Source: Salinigranum marinum
GTDB taxonomy: Archaea; Halobacteriota; Halobacteria; Halobacteriales; Haloferacaceae
Reading direction: 5' to 3'
Assembly: GCF_024228675.1 (NCBI RefSeq)
Contig: NZ_CP100462.1
Span: 248,001 to 312,000, forward strand
Length of the DNA stretch: 64,000 nucleotides
Shown in pieces: positions 47,468-56,441 of this stretch (position 1 is its first letter; every line of letters begins with the position of its first letter). Under the pieces are notes generated by a model. It had not been told where the DNA came from. It saw nothing but the letters and a program-made list of their open reading frames with translations, and searched no databases. The translations under genes and the position numbers were made by a program.

Positions 47468-47845
47468 TCACGTCCCGCGCTCCGGGTCGGCGGGAACGCG
47501 GCGACCGACGCGCGGAACCACCGTGAGGCGTGGCTCGCGACCGTCGAGTGTTCGCTGGCCGGGATTCGGCGAGGCGAACAGCGACTCCTGCTCACCAATA
47601 TCCACCTTGCCGTCACTCGTCTGCGGCCGATCGTCGATGAAGCTCTCGCTCGTGGGCATATCAAGTCGAGTCGATCGCTGATGGCCCACCTCGATGCTGT
47701 GATCGGTGAGCGTGGTCTCGACCGCACCCGTCTCGACCTCCAGTCCCCCCGTCCCGAAGACTGCCTGACGATGGACCGAGAGACCGAGTCGTGAATGGTC
47801 GTCTGCCGGTTCGTGATCGGACGGCCGTGAATCGTCGGTGGGCAT
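47468..47845 (-). CDS. Hypothetical protein linked to the AAA+/metallopeptidase cassette
   Basis: 125 residues from the ATG at 47845 (MPTDDSRPSDHEPADDHSRL). Middle part LEVETGAVETTLTDHSIEVG, RSTRLDMPTSESFIDDRPQT, then DGKVDIGEQESLFASPNPGQ and a basic tail (RTLDGREPRLTVVPRVGRR). It looks unstructured and rich in Thr/Asp with short conserved-looking blocks. I do not recognise it. It lies downstream of the METSRE gene on the same strand, separated by about 130 bp. Confidence 0.55.
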   Translation of the reverse strand: MPTDDSRPSDHEPADDHSRLGLSVHRQAVFGTGGLEVETGAVETTLTDHSIEVGHQRSTRLDMPTSESFIDDRPQTSDGKVDIGEQESLFASPNPGQRTLDGREPRLTVVPRVGRRVPADPERGT

Positions 47846-47972
47846 GAGGTCCCGAGGAAACTGGCGTTGCAGAACCGCCAGCTCCCTCGCCCCATTCGAG
47901 GCGGTAAATTTCGTCTGCCAGCAGTGACCTCCTGGAGTCGTTCTCCCATTTCGACTCGCCCTAGGCTGGCGG

Positions 47973-48467
47973 TCACAGGTCGGTCCTCGCGAACGCGCCT
48001 CCTCGGGGACCGTCTCCCTTGATGTACTGTCCCTCGAGGTGAACCTCCAGCGCGTCCGGTCGTCCACCGGTGAACTGCCCGGTCACGGTGTAGGGGGTGA
48101 GCCACGGCCCTCGTGCTTCGTCGTTGTCGTTCGTTCGGCACGCGTCGTTGGGAGCGGCTTCGACGTACACCTCGGCCGTTCGGTCGTCGACGAGGACGTG
48201 AGCGAGCGCGAATCCATCACAGTCCCACTCGAGGTGGCCTCGCCCGTCGACGGTGAATCGGTCGTCGGCGACGGTAATCGAGAGTTCGTCGGGCTCTGTC
48301 CCGAGGAAATCTCGAGTCCGGTCCGTCCCCACCGTGAGGGTCACCTCAGTCAATCCCAGTCCGTCAGCAGGATCGTCGACCCAGGGATGATCGTTGGTCG
48401 GGGGGCTGTCGACGGGGCCGTCGATAACGTCGACGCTGCGTTCCGACGGCTCTCGGCTGGTCTCCAT
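47973..48467 (-). CDS. Hypothetical protein overlapping the end of the metallopeptidase gene
   Basis: 164 residues from the ATG at 48467 (METSREPSERSVDVIDGPVD). A compact beta-rich domain follows (LTEVTLTVGTDRTRDFLGTE, ITVADDRFTVDGRGHLEWDC, FALAHVLVDDRTAEVYVEAA). Its frame overlaps the last 104 bp of the metallopeptidase gene. Either it is a separate gene with a long overlap, or a frameshift has detached the C-terminal domain of that protein; I cannot decide. The overlapped part of the metallopeptidase frame is low-complexity (RRRYRRPRRQPP), which favours a frameshift. Confidence 0.5.
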   Translation of the reverse strand: METSREPSERSVDVIDGPVDSPPTNDHPWVDDPADGLGLTEVTLTVGTDRTRDFLGTEPDELSITVADDRFTVDGRGHLEWDCDGFALAHVLVDDRTAEVYVEAAPNDACRTNDNDEARGPWLTPYTVTGQFTGGRPDALEVHLEGQYIKGDGPRGGAFARTDL

Positions 48468-49671
48468 CGCTGCCTGCCGTTGGCGATGAATCGACAGGGT
48501 TCGGGCCGGAGGTATCGGCAGTGTGGGCGTTCGGATCTTCGAGGACAGGTGTCTCGTCGAGGTCTTCGTCGAGCCGATCCGGGGTGATTGCGGGCTGATC
48601 GAGGGCGTCCTGGAACGGATCATCCGTTGCGCTCCGTTCGAACTGCGCGCGCTCGTCGCTCCTTACGTCAGTCCTCTCGTCGCTCGCTCGATCAGTTTGA
48701 GTTTCAGGACCAGCTGCTTCCGAGCCGTCCGAGTCCGGCGATAAGACGGAGTCCGCAGCAGTCTCTTGATTATCGCCCTCTGTTGGCGACTCGGAGGGTG
48801 CTTCGGAACGGTCCTCGAGGAGCGGGAGGGTCGCCGACTGCCAGGTCTCGCCGACGAGCCGAGCTCGCCGTACAGATGCGGTCTTGTCGTGGCTGTGGGT
48901 GACGTCGTCGCGTTCGGCGCTCCGGATCGCGAGGGCATTCCTTGCCAACCTCTGGAGCGCTTCCTGAACAGTATCGAAGCCCGTGGCATCCGCCTCCGAC
49001 GCGAAGACGATCCGCTTGTCGTCTTCATCGAGGAGTACCTCCGTGATGCCCGTTGGATAGATCGACCATTCGTAGAGCGCGCTCGTCACGGCGTCCCAGA
49101 AGGAGAACCGAACCCGCTCTCCGTCGGGAATGTCATCGGGAACTTGCGAATGGATCCGGCGGGTGAGTTCGAGGCGAATCTCGGCGTTGTCACTGAAGTT
49201 CGCTCCTTCAACGGCTTCCTGTTCGATGGCTCCATCCTCGATGATGTTGACGAGATCGTGGACCTGCTGGCGATAGTCGGGATCGATCTCGGTTTCGAGG
49301 AGTTCTGCGATGGGGCCGATAGCCGTCTTGAGGATATGGAGCAGTTCGTGAAAGGCGAGCCCGAACTGGTGGGCGTGGTCGGCCGTCAGTTGATCGTTCA
49401 CCGGGATCCTGTCTAGCGGCGCCGGTTCGGTCGTCACGAGAACGAGGAACTCGGCGTCGACGTTCTCGAGGAGCTGTTCGGCCTGCTGCCGCTCGAATTC
49501 AGTTGCATCGCTGGCCACGAGCGCATCGGGATTGGCAGGAAGGACCGCAGCGGTTTCGACAGCTGGCGTGAGAACGACCTCGACATCGATTCCCGGTGGC
49601 AGATGACCACGAATGAATGCACAGTCGCTCTGTTCGTCCAGATGACGTCCGCACTTGAGCAGCCACGTCAT
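48364..49671 (-). CDS. HELLH metallopeptidase-like protein with acidic linker (CobT/VWA-partner type)
   Basis: 435 residues. Zinc site candidate HELLH at 108-112, preceded by HAHQFGLAFHEL, with the next acidic ligand candidates in DLVNIIEDGAIEQEAVEG (about 139-156). Predicted helical domain to about 270 (RLARNALAIRSAERDDVTHS), then an acidic Ser/Asp/Glu-rich linker (SEAPSESPTEGDNQETAADS). The final 40 residues are an Arg-rich run that looks out of frame. In the same cassette is an AAA+ MoxR-like gene, a pairing seen in MoxR-VWA systems; no VWA domain is found here. Starts at the ATG 49671, MTWLLKCGRHLDEQSD. Confidence 0.75.
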   Translation of the reverse strand: MTWLLKCGRHLDEQSDCAFIRGHLPPGIDVEVVLTPAVETAAVLPANPDALVASDATEFERQQAEQLLENVDAEFLVLVTTEPAPLDRIPVNDQLTADHAHQFGLAFHELLHILKTAIGPIAELLETEIDPDYRQQVHDLVNIIEDGAIEQEAVEGANFSDNAEIRLELTRRIHSQVPDDIPDGERVRFSFWDAVTSALYEWSIYPTGITEVLLDEDDKRIVFASEADATGFDTVQEALQRLARNALAIRSAERDDVTHSHDKTASVRRARLVGETWQSATLPLLEDRSEAPSESPTEGDNQETAADSVLSPDSDGSEAAGPETQTDRASDERTDVRSDERAQFERSATDDPFQDALDQPAITPDRLDEDLDETPVLEDPNAHTADTSGPNPVDSSPTAGSDGDQPRAVGTQRRRYRRPRRQPPDQRSSLGRRSC

Positions 49672-50095
49672 GGGCGAATTTCTGTGCTGTAGCTCCGATG
49701 GATGAAGTGGTGTCGAACGTGGTGATACACGAGAAGGCTACGCGCTTCTCGTTCATTTCCGAGTGATAAACTCCTCCGAAGAACGTAGCTCTCACCAAAC
49801 CGAGCGAAATTATATCAGTCATGTATTATAACGGCCCGTGCAAGATGGAAGGCGCGTATCTCGCACGCCAGTTCTAGCAGCGTTCAGATAGGTTAGCCAG
49901 ACCGTGCAAGATACAGCGCACCAATCTGGTGCTGAACTCCATAATATCTCATAGCAGATGGAATTCTACCACCGGAAACCGAACTTATCAGTTGACGATT
50001 TGGTTGCAAGCGACTTCGCACGAGACCGTCCTGAATCACCCCTCCGACAACGCAGATAACTCGGACCGATCCCACCGCGCAACTCCGTACTCCAC
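49672..50095. other. Intergenic region with a dispersed short repeat
   Basis: About 420 bp between the metallopeptidase and the CNNM gene. It contains CCGTGCAAGATACAG (49902-49916) and a partial copy CCCGTGCAAGATGGA (49835-49849). No gene was recognised; short frames on both strands have no family character. It may hold the metallopeptidase promoter and IS or MITE debris. Confidence 0.4.
49902..49916 (+). repeat. CCGTGCAAGATACAG, inverted partner at 51599-51613
   Basis: The 15-mer CCGTGCAAGATACAG appears here and in reverse complement at 51599-51613, bracketing the CNNM gene at 50096-51430. A third degenerate copy (CGTGCAAGGTACAGAG) is at 38640-38655 in reverse. Confidence 0.55.
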
Positions 50096-51430
50096 TCAAT
50101 CCTCCACTGATTCATCCCTTTCGTGGACCCAGACCGTCGAAATTCGGGTCCCATCAACGGCTGTGACCTCAAGGATGTAGCCCGCGACCTCGACGTGATC
50201 GCCACGTTGTGGCGCACGGTTGAGTTTTTCGAGTACCAGTCCACCAATTGTTTCGACCTCTTCACTTACGAATTTTGCTTCAAACGTGTCGTTGACCTTC
50301 GACAATGGGACGCCACCGTCAACGTCGTACCCATCATCGTCACGTCGGCGAATCGAGTGCTCGCGTTCGTCCACATCAAACTCATCTCGGAGGTCTCCGA
50401 CGAGTGCCTCGACGACGTCTTCGACAGTCGCAATCCCCTCGAACGTTCCCCACTCGTCGATGACTGCGGCCATTTGCTGTTGATCATCTCTGAACTGTCT
50501 CAGTAGGTCGTCCAGTGCCATCGTCTCGGGAGCGATGACAATATCACGGGCGATGTCGCTTACTAACTCAGCATCTCCATCCTCCACCTCCGCCCGTAGC
50601 ACGTCCTTGAGGTCAACGAATCCGATCACTTGGTCGCCATCGTCGGCATCGAGAACTGGATAGCGCGTATGACCCGCCTCGAGGATGATTGACTGGAGGT
50701 CAGAAAGCGAGGTATCAGCTGGAACGCTCACCACATCCGGTCGTGGAACCATTACCTCCCGCACCACGATGTCGTCGAGATCAAACACCCGCTCAATCAT
50801 CGTCACTTCCGCAACGTCGATATCTCCTTCCTCGCCAGATCGAGTCAGTACTCGAAGGAGCTCCCGCTCGCCGAGCGTTTCATCCGTTTCAGAAGCGGGT
50901 GGCACGCCGAGTGCTCGCGTGAATGCATTGGCAGCTCCATTGAAGACGACGATGCCCGGATAGAGAATGTAATAGAAGATCTTCATTGGTGGGGCGAGGA
51001 ACAGAGAGAGCCGCTCGGTTTGGGCGATTGCGAGTGTCTTCGGCGCGAGTTCACCGAAGACGACGTGGAGGAACGTGATGAAACTAAAGCCGATTGCAAA
51101 GGCGACGAGGTGGATGAGACCGCCAGGGAGAATCGGTGCCAGCACGGGTTCGATGAGCGACGCCACAGCTGGTTCGCCGACCCACCCTAACCCAAGAGAG
51201 GCGATGGTGATACCGAGTTGCGTCGTCGCAAGATAGTCATCGAGATTCACCATCACTTCTTGGAGTGTCCCCGCGCCGGGGCGTCCTTCCTCAGCAAGTT
51301 GTTCGACCGATGTCCCTCGTATCCGTACAAAGGCGAACTCTGCAGCGACAAAAAAGCCGTTGAGTACCACAAGAGCCAACGCTATGACGACCTGCGCCAG
51401 CGAGAGCACGACGTTTACCATCGGTGGCAT
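50096..51430 (-). CDS. CNNM/CorC-type (DUF21-CBS-CorC_HlyC) membrane transporter
   Basis: 444 residues. DUF21 domain about 1-195 with four hydrophobic segments (VIALALVVLNGFFVAAEFAF; FSFITFLHVVFGELAPKTLA; MKIFYYILYPGIVVFNGAAN). CBS pair about 215-345 (MVPRPDVVSVPADTSLSDLQ, QQQMAAVIDEWGTFEGIATV). C-terminal CorC_HlyC domain (VDGGVPLSKVNDTFEAKFVS) about 360-435. Family members act in Mg2+ or Co2+ efflux/homeostasis with ATP bound by the CBS pair. It interrupts the AAA+/metallopeptidase cassette on the same strand and is bracketed by short inverted repeats. Confidence 0.92.
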   Translation of the reverse strand: MPPMVNVVLSLAQVVIALALVVLNGFFVAAEFAFVRIRGTSVEQLAEEGRPGAGTLQEVMVNLDDYLATTQLGITIASLGLGWVGEPAVASLIEPVLAPILPGGLIHLVAFAIGFSFITFLHVVFGELAPKTLAIAQTERLSLFLAPPMKIFYYILYPGIVVFNGAANAFTRALGVPPASETDETLGERELLRVLTRSGEEGDIDVAEVTMIERVFDLDDIVVREVMVPRPDVVSVPADTSLSDLQSIILEAGHTRYPVLDADDGDQVIGFVDLKDVLRAEVEDGDAELVSDIARDIVIAPETMALDDLLRQFRDDQQQMAAVIDEWGTFEGIATVEDVVEALVGDLRDEFDVDEREHSIRRRDDDGYDVDGGVPLSKVNDTFEAKFVSEEVETIGGLVLEKLNRAPQRGDHVEVAGYILEVTAVDGTRISTVWVHERDESVED

Positions 51431-51679
51431 TGGAAGCTACGGCTGCTTGATTGTTGGGTGTCCAGATTTCGGAATCTCGTTTCATTACTCAAAATGGTTA
51501 AATAATTTCAAACCAATATGTATTATTGTACCTATCGAACCCGTGTTGTAGATTTCCTGACAAAGGCTGTTCTGTGGAACATCTGCTGAATATACGCTCT
51601 GTATCTTGCACGGCAGTCCGTGACAATATTAGTAGGCTGATAGTTGGTTTGCCAGGTTAGGCAAGAGCCTCGGAAACAA

Positions 51680-53290
51680 TTACAGATAGTCGTTTAGCGT
51701 CTCGTAGGTATCGTCGAGATACTGATTCGGCTCGGCGACTGCCCACATCTCGTTCTTCACCGCGGCCTTCGGGGAGGCGCCGTCCTCAACGTGCTCACAG
51801 AGAATCGTCAGATTTCGCGTCGAGAGTGTGGGCCAGTTCTCGTTCTGCCGGGTCTGGTGGGCGAACTGGACGATTTTCCGGAGTGTCCCCCGGTCCACGA
51901 CCTCGTGACTGGTGTTCACCTGTGCATCCAGCGTCGCGACCTCCTCGTCGACGTCCTGAATGTAGGGCTGTTTGAGCGCTCGGAACCGACCACGTGTGGC
52001 CGAGTTCATCGGCTCGGAATCCCGGTACTCACGGGTCGGCGGGTTCATCGTGATCACAATTCGCGTCGACGGATGGGGTTCGACCAACTCGCCGTGAGCC
52101 TTCACGAGGAGCTTTCCCTCGTTGAGCAAGCGATGAAGCGACATCGCGGCGCCGGCTCGCATCACGGGGAATTCGTTGAGCACCAGCACCGACCCATTCA
52201 GCAGCGCTTGCTTGGCCGGGCCGTTCCGAGGCGCGATCAACCCGTCTTCAGTGGGCGTGAGCGGTCCGAAGAGGTCCTCCGTGTGGGTTGCCTCGTCACA
52301 GTCCACCGAGACGTAACCACGGTTCGTCCGGTGACACAGGTACTTAACGAGGTAGTTCTTCCCGGAGCCGCGTGGGCCAACCAAACGGACCGGAACCAGC
52401 CCACGGGCCAGTTTCTTCGCAAGCAGTTCACCTAGTGGAAGCTGGAGCCGCGGCTCCGTCGGAACCGCTGGTGGAACCACTTCCCCCGACACATCGACTG
52501 GCAGGGCATCGTCACCCGCCTCGGGATGGGTCGCAGCCTTCGGGACGTCAGGGTGATCGGGTTCGTCGAGGACGTGCAACCCGGTCGGCACCGGGTCCTG
52601 TTCGTTCCGTCCGATGTCCGAGACGTACTGGGCCTCGACAGCGTCCGGCTCGAGCCCCTCGGATCGATAACGGGGTTCGCCGACAGGTTCGGTGGCGGTG
52701 GTGATGTCGAGGATCCTGGCCGTCCCTCGGCCCGTCGTCGCGTCAACCCGACGACCGTATCGGACGTCAGCACTCCTGGCAAGCCACACGCCAACCGGGA
52801 CGTGCCGGGGTGCCGCCTGGATGATGGCCTCCGCGCGGCTCTCGGTCAGTGTCCCGGTTAACCCGGCGAGGTCGTTGACGTCGGCGTCCGCGAGATCGGT
52901 GAACGTCGCGTAGCCGGCGTCACGGAGCGCGGTCGCGATGCTCTCGGTGACGACCTCGAGAGCCTGAAAGTCAGCAGTACCCGTCGCGTCAGCAGGGCCG
53001 CCGAAGGCCTCGGTGATCACAGCCGGCTCCGGTCCCTGTGGCGAAACCCCGACGATGGTCGTACTCCCACGGGACCCCCTGTCGAGACTGAAAATCCCCT
53101 CGGCAGCACCAGCATTGATGAGGTCGGCGGCTTCCTGGTCGCCGATGTCGACGTAGTCGCTGACCCGGAAGGTGACCCGTTCGAGCGGGACACTACCCCT
53201 CTCGCGCTTGAGCAGGCGATGGACGAGGTGCGACAGGACCAGGAGCGGTTCGGGGCGATCGACATCTGGATCTGGATCGGATGTAGACAT
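51680..53290 (-). CDS. MoxR/CbbQ-like AAA+ ATPase with altered Walker motifs
   Basis: 536 residues from the ATG at 53290 (MSTSDPDPDVDRPEPLLVLS). N-terminal segment 13-75 looks like a winged-helix/tetramer domain; 122-160 (LRDAGYATFTDLADADVNDL, TGTLTESRAEAIIQAA) resembles a helix-hairpin-helix. The AAA+ core begins near 284. Walker A is GPRGSGKN (305-312), with Asn where Thr/Ser is usual. The Walker B-like strand is VLVLNEF (368-374), with Asn in place of Asp. Sensor-type segment RIVITMNPPTREYRDSEPMN and arginine finger candidate ATRGRF follow. It probably remodels a partner, most likely the HELLH protein encoded downstream. Confidence 0.85.
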   Translation of the reverse strand: MSTSDPDPDVDRPEPLLVLSHLVHRLLKRERGSVPLERVTFRVSDYVDIGDQEAADLINAGAAEGIFSLDRGSRGSTTIVGVSPQGPEPAVITEAFGGPADATGTADFQALEVVTESIATALRDAGYATFTDLADADVNDLAGLTGTLTESRAEAIIQAAPRHVPVGVWLARSADVRYGRRVDATTGRGTARILDITTATEPVGEPRYRSEGLEPDAVEAQYVSDIGRNEQDPVPTGLHVLDEPDHPDVPKAATHPEAGDDALPVDVSGEVVPPAVPTEPRLQLPLGELLAKKLARGLVPVRLVGPRGSGKNYLVKYLCHRTNRGYVSVDCDEATHTEDLFGPLTPTEDGLIAPRNGPAKQALLNGSVLVLNEFPVMRAGAAMSLHRLLNEGKLLVKAHGELVEPHPSTRIVITMNPPTREYRDSEPMNSATRGRFRALKQPYIQDVDEEVATLDAQVNTSHEVVDRGTLRKIVQFAHQTRQNENWPTLSTRNLTILCEHVEDGASPKAAVKNEMWAVAEPNQYLDDTYETLNDYL

Positions 53291-53455
53291 GAATATGAGA
53301 CGGAACCTGCGTGGGAATCCCGCCACCCGATTGTGGGTCGATAAATCAGCGGCGGACTGAGAATCCAGACAGAACACTCGATGAGGACCGCCCGGTCGAC
53401 CTGAGTGGTTATGATGCGAGACGCGTTAGTAGCGCACAGAGGACACCAACGACTC

Positions 53456-53770
53456 ATGGCTGGAACTGGGTCACAATCGAATTCGGATGGGACGATGCCG
53501 GAGATTGTGAAGACGGACGATATCCTGGGCGGAGACTCCCGAATCGAAGGGCACCGCATCGGCGTATATCACGTCTACCAGCGCTACGTCGACGGAGACG
53601 ACACGCCGGAGGAGATCGCCACAAGTTACGATATCTCAGTCGTTGAGGTCCATGCCGCGCTCGCATACGCGTTCAGCCACCCCGAGGAGATGCGCGCCAT
53701 TGAGGCTCGAAACCAGCCGATGTACGAAGAAAAGGCGGCGAACCGGCTCGTTCCTGACGAGACTGACTGA
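53456..53770 (+). CDS. DUF433-family (antitoxin-like) protein
   Basis: 104 residues from the ATG at 53456; the ATG at 53498 (MPEIVKTDDILGGDSRIEGH) is equally possible and gives 90. DUF433 signature: GGDSRIEGHRIGVYHVYQRY and SYDISVVEVHAALAYAFSHP. The family is usually an antitoxin paired with a PIN-like toxin (DUF5615), but none follows here. It stands divergent from the AAA+ gene (about 165 bp between the starts) and may be an orphan. Confidence 0.85.
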   Translation: MAGTGSQSNSDGTMPEIVKTDDILGGDSRIEGHRIGVYHVYQRYVDGDDTPEEIATSYDISVVEVHAALAYAFSHPEEMRAIEARNQPMYEEKAANRLVPDETD

Positions 53771-53800: not shown

Positions 53801-54283
53801 TCAAGCAGGGTTCCTTCCCGAGTTGAGCGGCTTGAGTGAGTCTGCACGATAGGCAGTCCGCCACAGTTTGAGCACTGCACGAGCCACTAGAAGGTCGGGT
53901 GACTGTTGGATACAGGACTCCTCGACATCGTTTGGGTCGGACGATGCATCTGGCGGCGGGTGGTAGTGCGCTAGTCCGGTGACGTGAACATAGTCGCCAC
54001 CGTGAGGGTGTTTTCCCCAGCGGAGGTTGACGTTCAGCGTGTCCGTATAGTGGAATTTGTAGTCGTCTTGGACCGTCCACTGGATATCAAGGCGACAGGA
54101 GTCGGCACCACAGAGACCGTCGTCAAACCGTACTTCGAGCGTGGTGGGATTGAGAAAATCGTCTAACGTCGCCGTTGCAAGGGGTTCCTCGTCGTTGAAA
54201 ATGTCACGGATGACGAGGAGTGCGGGTCTGTCGATGGCACCTCGAAGCGAGTGACGTTCACCCGAGTCACGGGGTCCGTTCAT
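53801..54283 (-). CDS. TumE-like (DUF6516-type) putative toxin, copy 2
   Basis: 160 residues. The block FHYTDTLNVNLRWGKHPHGG, DYVHVTGLAHYHP (78-109) carries the same HY...RW..PH...H pattern as copy 1 at 38793. Upstream half: FDDGLCGADSCRLDIQWTVQ (two Cys). It starts 4 bp after the HTH gene stop on the same strand. Sequence identity to copy 1 outside the block is very low, so the two pairs are old paralogues or separate arrivals. Confidence 0.65.
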   Translation of the reverse strand: MNGPRDSGERHSLRGAIDRPALLVIRDIFNDEEPLATATLDDFLNPTTLEVRFDDGLCGADSCRLDIQWTVQDDYKFHYTDTLNVNLRWGKHPHGGDYVHVTGLAHYHPPPDASSDPNDVEESCIQQSPDLLVARAVLKLWRTAYRADSLKPLNSGRNPA

Positions 54284-54286
54284 ACG

Positions 54287-54880
54287 CTACGGTGTGGAGG
54301 TGTTCTCTTCGAGATGCGACGAGTCTCCGCCGACGAACCGTTCTGCGTTCGCGATAGAGAGCGCGGCGTTGGCGAACGCGAGGTTGCGCCGCGTTGTCTG
54401 CCACTCTTGGAGTGTGTCTGAGTCGATCTCGCGTTCGTGCTCCGACGCTTCAGAGAGGGTTTGGTTCGTTTGCTCGACCATCAGTTCCTCAGGCGATTCG
54501 ACGCCGTACTCCGTCTGGAACTCACTGATGGTCTCACGCATGGCAGCGATACGGTTCACGAGTTCATCGACAGAGACGTGAGAGAGAATGTCCGCCGCCT
54601 GTTCCATGACGAGCGACTCCGGCGATCGACGATAGTACGTCCCGCCATGGTCTCCCGTCGACGTGGCGACGAACCCCTCCTCGGCGAGTGCCGTGAGATG
54701 TTTCCGAGCAGTCTTCGGTGACGTGCGTGCATCCGCTGCGACCGTCTCGGCCGAGCGTGGGGTATACTCGCGGCTAATGACTTCACGGACACGTTCATAC
54801 GGCGTCGTCTCGGCCTCCCATTCCTCGCCGACTGCCTCGTTAACATCGTCGAATGTTCCGGGAGCGGCGGAGTCTGTCAT
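54287..54880 (-). CDS. Winged-HTH regulator paired with TumE-like protein, copy 2
   Basis: 197 residues from the ATG at 54880 (MTDSAAPGTFDDVNEAVGEE). HTH: PRSAETVAADARTSPKTARK, HLTALAEEGFVATST (about 45-79), with a GGTYYRRS wing, then a helical region (LVNRIAAMRETISEFQTEYG) and an acidic end. Same layout as copy 1: HTH gene first, then TumE-like gene 4 bp on. A TATA-like box sits about 26 bp before the ATG, so the message is probably leaderless. Confidence 0.78.
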   Translation of the reverse strand: MTDSAAPGTFDDVNEAVGEEWEAETTPYERVREVISREYTPRSAETVAADARTSPKTARKHLTALAEEGFVATSTGDHGGTYYRRSPESLVMEQAADILSHVSVDELVNRIAAMRETISEFQTEYGVESPEELMVEQTNQTLSEASEHEREIDSDTLQEWQTTRRNLAFANAALSIANAERFVGGDSSHLEENTSTP

Positions 54881-54902
54881 ATATCCGACCACGATTTGGA
54901 GT

Positions 54903-54911
54903 AGTATAGAC
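54903..54911 (-). promoter_or_regulatory. TATA-like box for the HTH/TumE-like operon, copy 2
   Basis: Minus strand GTCTATACT, centred about 26 bp before the ATG at 54880. This matches leaderless spacing, as for copy 1. Confidence 0.45.
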
Positions 54912-55003
54912 TTTTGGCACGGTAATATACTACTTATCTCTCGCGAAGTAGCTGAAGTGAACGCGGATAGGTGTGAAGACCTACAGAGATTGTACTGCAC
55001 GGC

Positions 55004-55859
55004 TCAGTCGAGGTCATCTAGGCGACGTTGAATCCGGTTATGGAGTTGCTGGGCTTGCCCGTCGGAGAGATCTGCTTCCGTATCGACCTCGATGCCCGGA
55101 ACGTCGACGATGTCTTCCAGCACATCAGTCAGCCGTGGGAGAAAGTCGACGGGCAAAGCTGGGGGAATCCGTAGTGACAGCTCCCGATTGAGCACCCCAT
55201 ACGCCAGCCGGAACTTCCCACAGTCGACCCGAGCCGCCTCGGCGATCTCGTCGAGAAAGCGGGGCAGTCGGCGGCGGCGACACGCCGCGTACACCGCGGC
55301 GCTCGCCATCGATTCGAGGGACCGACCGCGAATCAGATCTGCCGACTGTGCCTCGCGAAACAGCTGACCAGCCTCCGCCTGTATGCTCTCGCCCACGCCC
55401 AGCGCCCCACCAATCCGACGGATCTCACCGAGACCATGCGCGAGGTTCTGGTCGGCCTTGCTCTCGAAGCGAGCCCGTCGGTTCCACCGGCGGAGTCGAC
55501 GCAGGCGGGCCCGGGTCGCAGCCGGGAGTTCGCGACCGTGGCCGTCTCGGAATTGGCCTATCTCGGCAGAGACTCCCCAGTCGTGACGCATAGGGGGTCA
55601 CTGGGCCGCCGACTCGACGCCGCTCTGCTTCGTCGTAGGGCGTCCACTCCGGGCCGTGGTCCAAGCCGGCATCCTCCACAATCAGACCGCAGTCGGGACA
55701 GTACGTCTCGGTGTCGTCGCTGACGAGCTGTACACCGTCACATTCTGGACAGCAGTCAGACGTGTTCGCCGGCGTTTCGTCGACGGCGTCGACGTGATGA
55801 CGGGAATCGGTACACTGGTCGGTCGAGACAGTCGCGTAGCTGGGCGAATTGAGGGACAT
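55004..55859 (-). pseudogene. tfb: Transcription factor B (TFB) gene, frameshifted and C-terminally shortened
   Basis: The 5' frame from the ATG at 55859 carries the zinc ribbon (CCPECDGVQLVSDDTETYCPDC split here for length) and the B-finger-like ending DHGPEWTPYDEAERRRVGGP, then an inserted T near 55592 shifts the frame. The second frame gives RHDWGVSAEIGQFRDGHGRE (B-linker) and a first cyclin repeat (SKADQNLAHGLGEIRRIGGA, RGRSLESMASAAVYAACRRR). It stops after DGQAQQLHNRIQRRLDDLD, so the second cyclin repeat is missing. TFB recruits RNA polymerase; this copy cannot work as a normal factor. Confidence 0.85.
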
Positions 55860-55904: not shown

Positions 55905-56441
55905 TTAGTCGGGAGCGTGGTCGACGAGATCTGGCGGGAACGGTGGGTCGAACGTATCGTGGAAGGCGAGACAGACCCGGTCCTGCCAGGCAGCGTATTC
56001 GTCTGGCGGTGTCTGCTCGAATCGCTTCACGCCGATGCCGGACTCACGAGCGAAGGCCTCGAGATCGATCGCCTCGATGCTCGTAATGGCCCCCGGCGAT
56101 GGTGTCGGCGTGGCTGCTGCTAGCGGTCGCTCGATCCAGCCGTCGAAACAGCCGTCGGTCGAACTAATCACCACGACACCGTCGGTCGCACCGACAAACA
56201 GCCGCGTAGTGATCCGGGCGAGGTTGCGATACAACCCGGGCGGGATGACGAGCACCAACTGGTCGGTATCGATTGTCTCGACCCGACCGTGCTCGATGAC
56301 GCGCCCGTCGACCCGCCAGCGCTGGTGGTCGTCAAGCCAGCCACCGGTCTGGAGTCGGCCAACAGCGGTCTCCAGACACGCGAGGGTTCGGTACCGGATG
56401 TAGCCGGTCACTGTCGCATAGAAGCTCACTGCATCCTCCAA
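55905..56441 (-). CDS. Hypothetical protein
   Basis: 178 residues, MEDAVSFYATVTGYIRYRTL. A region of alternating strands follows (WRVDGRVIEHGRVETIDTDQ, LVIPPGLYRNLARITTRLFV, GVVVISSTDGCFDGWIERPL), suggesting a small beta-sheet protein; the C-terminus is Asp/Pro-rich (FDPPFPPDLVDHAPD). I do not recognise it. It lies downstream of the broken MHMLIR gene on the same strand with about 80 bp between, and may have been co-transcribed with it. Confidence 0.6.
   Translation of the reverse strand: MEDAVSFYATVTGYIRYRTLACLETAVGRLQTGGWLDDHQRWRVDGRVIEHGRVETIDTDQLVLVIPPGLYRNLARITTRLFVGATDGVVVISSTDGCFDGWIERPLAAATPTPSPGAITSIEAIDLEAFARESGIGVKRFEQTPPDEYAAWQDRVCLAFHDTFDPPFPPDLVDHAPD

Follow-up and report, generated by a model that had tools for sequence, protein, structure and literature searches.

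A probably decayed haloarchaeal plasmid MoxR-VWA cassette and its AAA+ clade with asparagine in both Walker motifs

The window (the whole 64,000-nt stretch of Salinigranum marinum DNA that was analysed) contains an intact gene for a CobS/MoxR-like AAA+ protein set among damaged members of a gene cassette. To map the lesions, the DNA of the window was aligned with L057, a second copy on contig C4 of the same genome, and with L035, another cassette locus. The features recovered are as follows:

47468..48067, minus strand: homologue of the small cassette gene K, 71% to L035; a shorter start at 47845 is possible
47973..48449, minus strand: lipoprotein-like gene J, of which only the 3′ part is present (257 aa when whole, in L035)
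48364..49671, minus strand: remnant of a HExxH-linker-VWA (CobT-like) gene, reduced to its HExxH domain and a portion of the acidic linker
48455..48464, minus strand: deletion junction that joins the HExxH-VWA gene to the lipoprotein gene, with an 11-bp shared stretch (GAGACCAGCCG)
49776..51673, minus strand: insert of about 1.9 kb separating the AAA+ gene from the HExxH gene (only about 52 bp at this place in the sister copy L057)
50096-51430: intact CNNM/CorC gene (CBS, CorC_HlyC) inside the insert (Pfam CNNM, E = 1.4e-50)
51680..53290, minus strand: intact CobS/MoxR-like AAA+ gene, 536 aa (ORF list, Pfam and motif reading)
52169..52189, minus strand: Walker B codons V-L-V-L-N-E-F, residues 368-374, with Asn372 replacing Asp and Glu373 kept (coordinates from residue numbers)
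52355..52378, minus strand: Walker A codons G-P-R-G-S-G-K-N, residues 305-312, with Asn312 replacing Ser/Thr
55004..55133, minus strand: C-terminal remnant of the DUF932-like gene (G), profile positions 460-501 (the last 42), fused to a broken TFB gene
55134..55859, minus strand: TFB gene of the cassette, truncated and frameshifted
55905..56441, minus strand: 178-aa cassette gene, 58% to gene A of L030

P-loop ATPases are regarded as unable to do without the Mg2+ coordination that the Walker A Ser/Thr and the Walker B Asp provide. An earlier sequence-only reading of this DNA had described the AAA+ frame, its length and both asparagine-bearing motifs exactly as listed above, and had noted a resemblance to MoxR/CbbQ proteins, which our searches support. 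A helix-hairpin-helix motif in the N-terminal region is followed by an AAA_5 domain (Pfam, 1.9e-20), sequence searches matched structures of CbbQ, NorQ and CobS, and the Walker, sensor and Arg-finger motifs that mark AAA_5 proteins are all present. The canonical Mg2+ ligands (GK[ST] and DE), which are usual in such proteins but not required for homology, are absent from the whole clade to which the protein belongs.

This absence is ancestral to the window copy. GPRGSGKN and NEF were found in 32 of 32 distinct homologues, at identities down to 35-36%, and GKN with NE in every clade row holding both motifs (75 rows, repeats included, from homologues in related genomes and a genome collection). 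In a tree built from an alignment that excluded the two Asn columns, the 32 distinct GKN/NE rows formed one clade (support 100/99), in agreement with the earlier suggestion that the residues are a family trait and not a product of decay. Clade homologues are mostly haloarchaeal and plasmid-borne, where the replicon is named, with up to three copies per genome; the Salinigranum marinum genome of the window itself has three. The sister of the clade is a Salinibaculum plasmid protein (L069) with GKD/DE (support 95/89), the haloviruses HVTV-1 and HCTV-1 have GKN/DE, haloarchaeal GvpN-like rows have GKT/NE, and more distant haloarchaeal MoxR proteins have GKS/DE. Each change alone thus occurs elsewhere, and within the sequences sampled both occur together only in this clade. 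Lys311, the catalytic Glu373, Asn416 (sensor 1), Arg435 (Arg finger) and Arg492 (sensor 2) are invariant across the clade and common to the canonical outgroup; because this remaining catalytic set is invariant, the two asparagines represent a selected family trait. D330, K397 and T432 are particular to the clade and may compensate for the altered ligands. In this tree the replacement of both Mg2+ ligands by Asn has a single origin, probably through an intermediate in which only Walker A had changed, an order suggested by the sister states rather than proven since several outgroup branches are long; the haloviruses and the sister plasmid may be natural intermediates. Other AAA_5 proteins of the relatives showed DE with GKT, GKS or AKT where a simple pattern was readable, a weak control because the pattern failed at about half of the loci. 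A scan of viral contigs for the GKN/NEF clade returned no relative, a literature search with the terms tried returned no paper describing MoxR proteins whose two Walker motifs both carry Asn, and we found no biochemistry for any GKN/NE member.

To describe the cassette, we tabulated the neighbours of the AAA+ gene at 40 other distinct loci, setting two duplicate loci aside. At 39 of these the upstream side carries a DUF932-like gene, and at 35 a HExxH domain is encoded downstream in the same orientation, so the HELLH gene earlier proposed as a regular neighbour is indeed a near-constant one. Five loci lack it: for one, just 3.3 kb of downstream sequence is available; in another the AAA+ gene is truncated; and in L027, L043 and L064 no HExxH-VWA gene was detectable in 7.7 kb or more of downstream sequence each. 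A VWA domain follows in 32 of the 35 HExxH loci (two of the remainder end at a contig edge and L051 is decayed). Within the available flanks, a SWIM-like gene was seen at 21/40 loci (no Pfam support, with a CxC..CxH motif conserved by eye) and a PCNA-like gene at 18/40. Upstream gene G (G_487) gave nothing by Pfam or by PDB sequence search; its sequence matches phrog_13083 (8.5e-82), and its model, of low confidence (pLDDT 64), matches the fold of DUF932/TIGR03299 phage and plasmid proteins, so that it may be called DUF932-like by predicted fold only. The profile of this family is matched in 96/392 genomes, and shorter relatives, matched over the C-terminal half, occur in many haloarchaeal genomes (L116-L120, e.g., L117 5060-6229).

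Intact HExxH partners are 843-1,195 aa long and consist of a HExxH domain, an acidic linker and a C-terminal VWA domain with an intact MIDAS; one such locus is L057, on contig C4 of the window's own genome, where the HExxH-VWA protein has 864 aa. Pfam VWA_2 was recovered in all 16 partner members (best 6.5e-15), with the DxSxS, T and D of the MIDAS conserved, and in the HExxH domain HExLH and a downstream N-x2-E-D motif (a candidate third ligand; N-x2-E-D-x2-I-E in fuller form) are invariant. Similarity to CobT itself is slight, with CobT_C detected in 5/16 members (best only 0.00097) and PDB CobT matched at E 0.02-0.07. Profile comparison with HVTV-1 gp57 and a Halomicrobium vWA protein, the latter adjoining a GKS/DE ATPase, gave 4e-8 to 4e-11 for the HExxH domain and about 1e-28 to 1e-29 for the VWA domain, and a model of the HExxH domain (pLDDT 85.6) matched the fold of HVTV-1 gp57 (6.5e-8) and of an HHTV-2 protein (9.8e-4). 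Judged from its sequence, the HExxH protein is of CobT/NorD-like architecture, as found beside CobS-like ATPases in haloviruses, phages and plasmids. Against the PDB, the HExxH domain found no significant match by sequence or by fold, solved protease folds included, which leaves protease activity possible but unsupported. A published survey notes that HHTV-2 has a divided cobT, the vWA having an ORF of its own, and that cyanophage cobT is usually misannotated as a peptidase (PMC8651126).

Compared with these loci, the window copy is decayed. A 2-bp deletion near 49621 shifts the frame of the HExxH remnant, leaving its 5′ end in another frame (49499-49822), and at about 48455-48464 the gene is cut by a deletion that runs from the middle of the HExxH-VWA gene to the middle of the lipoprotein-like gene, 2.76 kb being missing relative to L035. 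The VWA domain and the SWIM-like gene were lost with it, and the last part of the remnant ORF is lipoprotein-gene sequence read out of frame. The sequence-only reading had seen an AAA+ gene followed by a HELLH protein with an acidic linker, a beta-rich protein in an overlapping frame and a third small protein. An ORF with an acidic C-terminal stretch does lie there, but it is no whole gene, and the CNNM/CorC gene, which had been missed, intervenes; the overlapping ORF is likewise present but is really the 3′ half of the lipoprotein-like gene, a separate gene that the deletion has joined to the remnant, and the third ORF is the gene K homologue. The statement that no VWA domain is present does not extend to the family, since intact HExxH proteins are themselves the VWA partner. 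In the window the domain is missing because a deletion cut the partner gene; its absence reflects the decay of this one copy and does not mark a new type of system. The locus thus provides an example of a deletion imitating a novel architecture.

The MoxR-VWA pair is a known kind of system, and what is unusual here is its AAA+ clade. Among the systems closest to it are the CobS-CobT-like pairs of haloviruses (HVTV-1 gp59-gp57, HCTV-1 gp57-gp56), in which a CobS-like AAA+ protein with the same Walker A GKN lies beside a HExxH-acidic linker-VWA protein with homologous domains; they differ in a normal Walker B DE, in residing in tailed-virus genomes and in having no DUF932-like or SWIM-like gene annotated alongside. 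NorQ-NorD and CbbQ-CbbO share the MoxR-type AAA+ and a partner made of an N-terminal domain, a flexible linker and a VWA with MIDAS (PMC9976466, PMC13036017), whereas NorQ, for which the usual Walker motifs are described (PMC9976466), serves to insert iron into NO reductase and does not belong to a plasmid cassette. The AAA+ profile also matches cobaltochelatase CobS (3.7e-12), with a weak VWA match to CobT, but the clade has Asn in both Walker motifs and different neighbours, and a chelatase role is not supported for it. On plasmid pCAR1 (IncP-7), an AAA - DUF3150 - ‘NorD’ triad similarly combines a plasmid-borne AAA+ with a VWA partner and carries HECSH and N-x2-E-D-x-R-I-E motifs comparable to those of the clade partner, although its ATPase is GKS/DE and its third gene is another. 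Haloarchaeal GvpN-like proteins share the Walker B NE but have a Walker A GKT, and an identification of the window protein as GvpN was rejected (35.7 bits against a family cut-off of 266.8). Escherichia coli YehL-YehM-YehP-YehQ likewise unites MoxR AAA+, VWA and SWIM genes in one operon; kinship was rejected, only the VWA domains being alike, since the AAA+, SWIM and third-gene proteins are not significantly related by profile (hhalign probabilities below 1% for the SWIM and third-gene proteins). In a comparison with the VMAP/TPP/FtsH vWA-MoxR conflict systems (PMC7159879), the third component of the cassette core is DUF932-like by fold, and PADLOC, run on the window proteins, gave no match to a VWA-MoxR defence system.

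Taken together, we consider it likely that the window holds a decayed haloarchaeal plasmid MoxR-VWA cassette whose partner gene is broken and whose Asn/Asn ring still cycles ATP. Three proteins would make up the cassette core: one DUF932-like, one CobS/MoxR-like AAA+ and one CobT/NorD-like HExxH-linker-VWA; genes for a SWIM-like protein and a PCNA-like clamp often lie nearby. In NorQ-NorD, the best-studied analogue, the MoxR protein forms a hexameric ring that rotates the VWA finger against an N-terminal domain (PMC13036017, PMC9976466). By analogy, the AAA+ protein of the cassette is most likely also a hexameric ring, one that engages the VWA protein and would remodel a client bound between the MIDAS and the HExxH domain at the N terminus. 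Given that no other member of the catalytic set varies, ATP binding and cycling have most likely been retained, the latter perhaps slow or with altered metal handling. A more specific proposal, that these AAA+ motors hydrolyse ATP with both protein ligands of Mg2+ replaced by Asn, with an altered metal dependence in KCl-rich cells and with Walker A changed first, is put forward only tentatively. A clade in which both ligands are replaced and the other catalytic residues kept offers a direct test of an AAA+ motor without them.

The main rival to a cycling ring is a hydrolysis-dead one: nucleotide would be bound, perhaps in the absence of Mg2+, and the HExxH-VWA partner would be offered a static scaffold or switch. 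Replacement of both Mg2+-holding side chains in every member speaks for it, as does the NorQ Walker B Glu-to-Gln mutant, which assembles and binds ATP while hydrolysing little (PMC13036017); invariance of Glu373, Asn416, Arg435 and Arg492 over deep divergence would be unexpected had hydrolysis been lost, and we regard this scaffold as possible but doubtful. Somewhat better placed, if still short of an even chance, is a functionless AAA+ gene in the window copy, the last survivor of a dying locus that has lost or damaged most of the cassette genes around it. Its private changes (8 replacement to 24 silent, compared with 7 to 42 summed over four relatives) include somewhat more replacements and are suggestive of relaxed selection, counts too small for this to be judged. 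Against loss of function, the ORF is intact, silent changes still exceed replacements and intact partners exist elsewhere in the same genome; moreover, all intact relatives share the Asn pair, which therefore predates the decay. The AAA+ gene is the only intact core gene of the window; its product would depend on a partner supplied by a different copy, and the cycling ring that we favour could pair with one from, for example, the intact C4 copy.

Two further readings concern what the pair might do. The sequence-only reading had proposed that a metallopeptidase stands in for the VWA partner, giving a non-canonical chaperone-protease pair, and the conserved HExLH and downstream N-x2-E-D-x2-I-E, together with the near-constancy of the HExxH gene, are what such a pair would predict; yet intact partners end in a VWA domain with MIDAS, the same HExxH-VWA design stands beside canonical GKS/DE ATPases and viral CobS, and no solved protease fold was matched significantly, making this reading highly improbable. 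It is also unlikely, if less so, that the cassette is a plasmid CobST feeding the host cobaltochelatase (CobN), as has been proposed for archaeal tailed viruses (PMC8651126). Its AAA+ and VWA genes do stand in the same order as halovirus cobST, but direct similarity to cellular CobT is weak (E 0.02-0.07) and the genes that accompany the plasmid cassette are of DUF932-like, SWIM-like, PCNA-like and TFB type.

Several additional features of the cassette surroundings were recorded. Between the AAA+ and HExxH-VWA genes lies a variable cargo site of about 0.1 to 6 kb (L028 9612-14765; L031 9620-14423; L065 9676-12394; L075 11673-14476; window 49776-51673), the contents of which include a STAND-type NTPase, a HerA-like ATPase, a DNA methyltransferase, TIGR02391, M48 and MCP-like proteins and, in the window, CNNM; some cargo genes resemble defence genes. 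Upstream of the window AAA+ gene, a DUF433 gene (53405-53770, plus strand) stands without a partner, while its counterpart in the C4 copy (L057 13887-14595) precedes a DUF5615 PIN-like gene, so the toxin-antitoxin-like pair of the window seems to have lost one half. A recurrent two-gene module of a DUF7342 helix-turn-helix-like protein and a protein of about 150 aa lies on either side of the AAA+ gene depending on the copy (window 53801-55000; L033 9701-10705; L044 9876-10844; L049 3744-4810). Finally, in the bacterial phages L076 and L078 a CobS-like gene lies close to sliding-clamp genes, and this proximity, together with the PCNA-like gene of the cassette, points to a possible link to replication.
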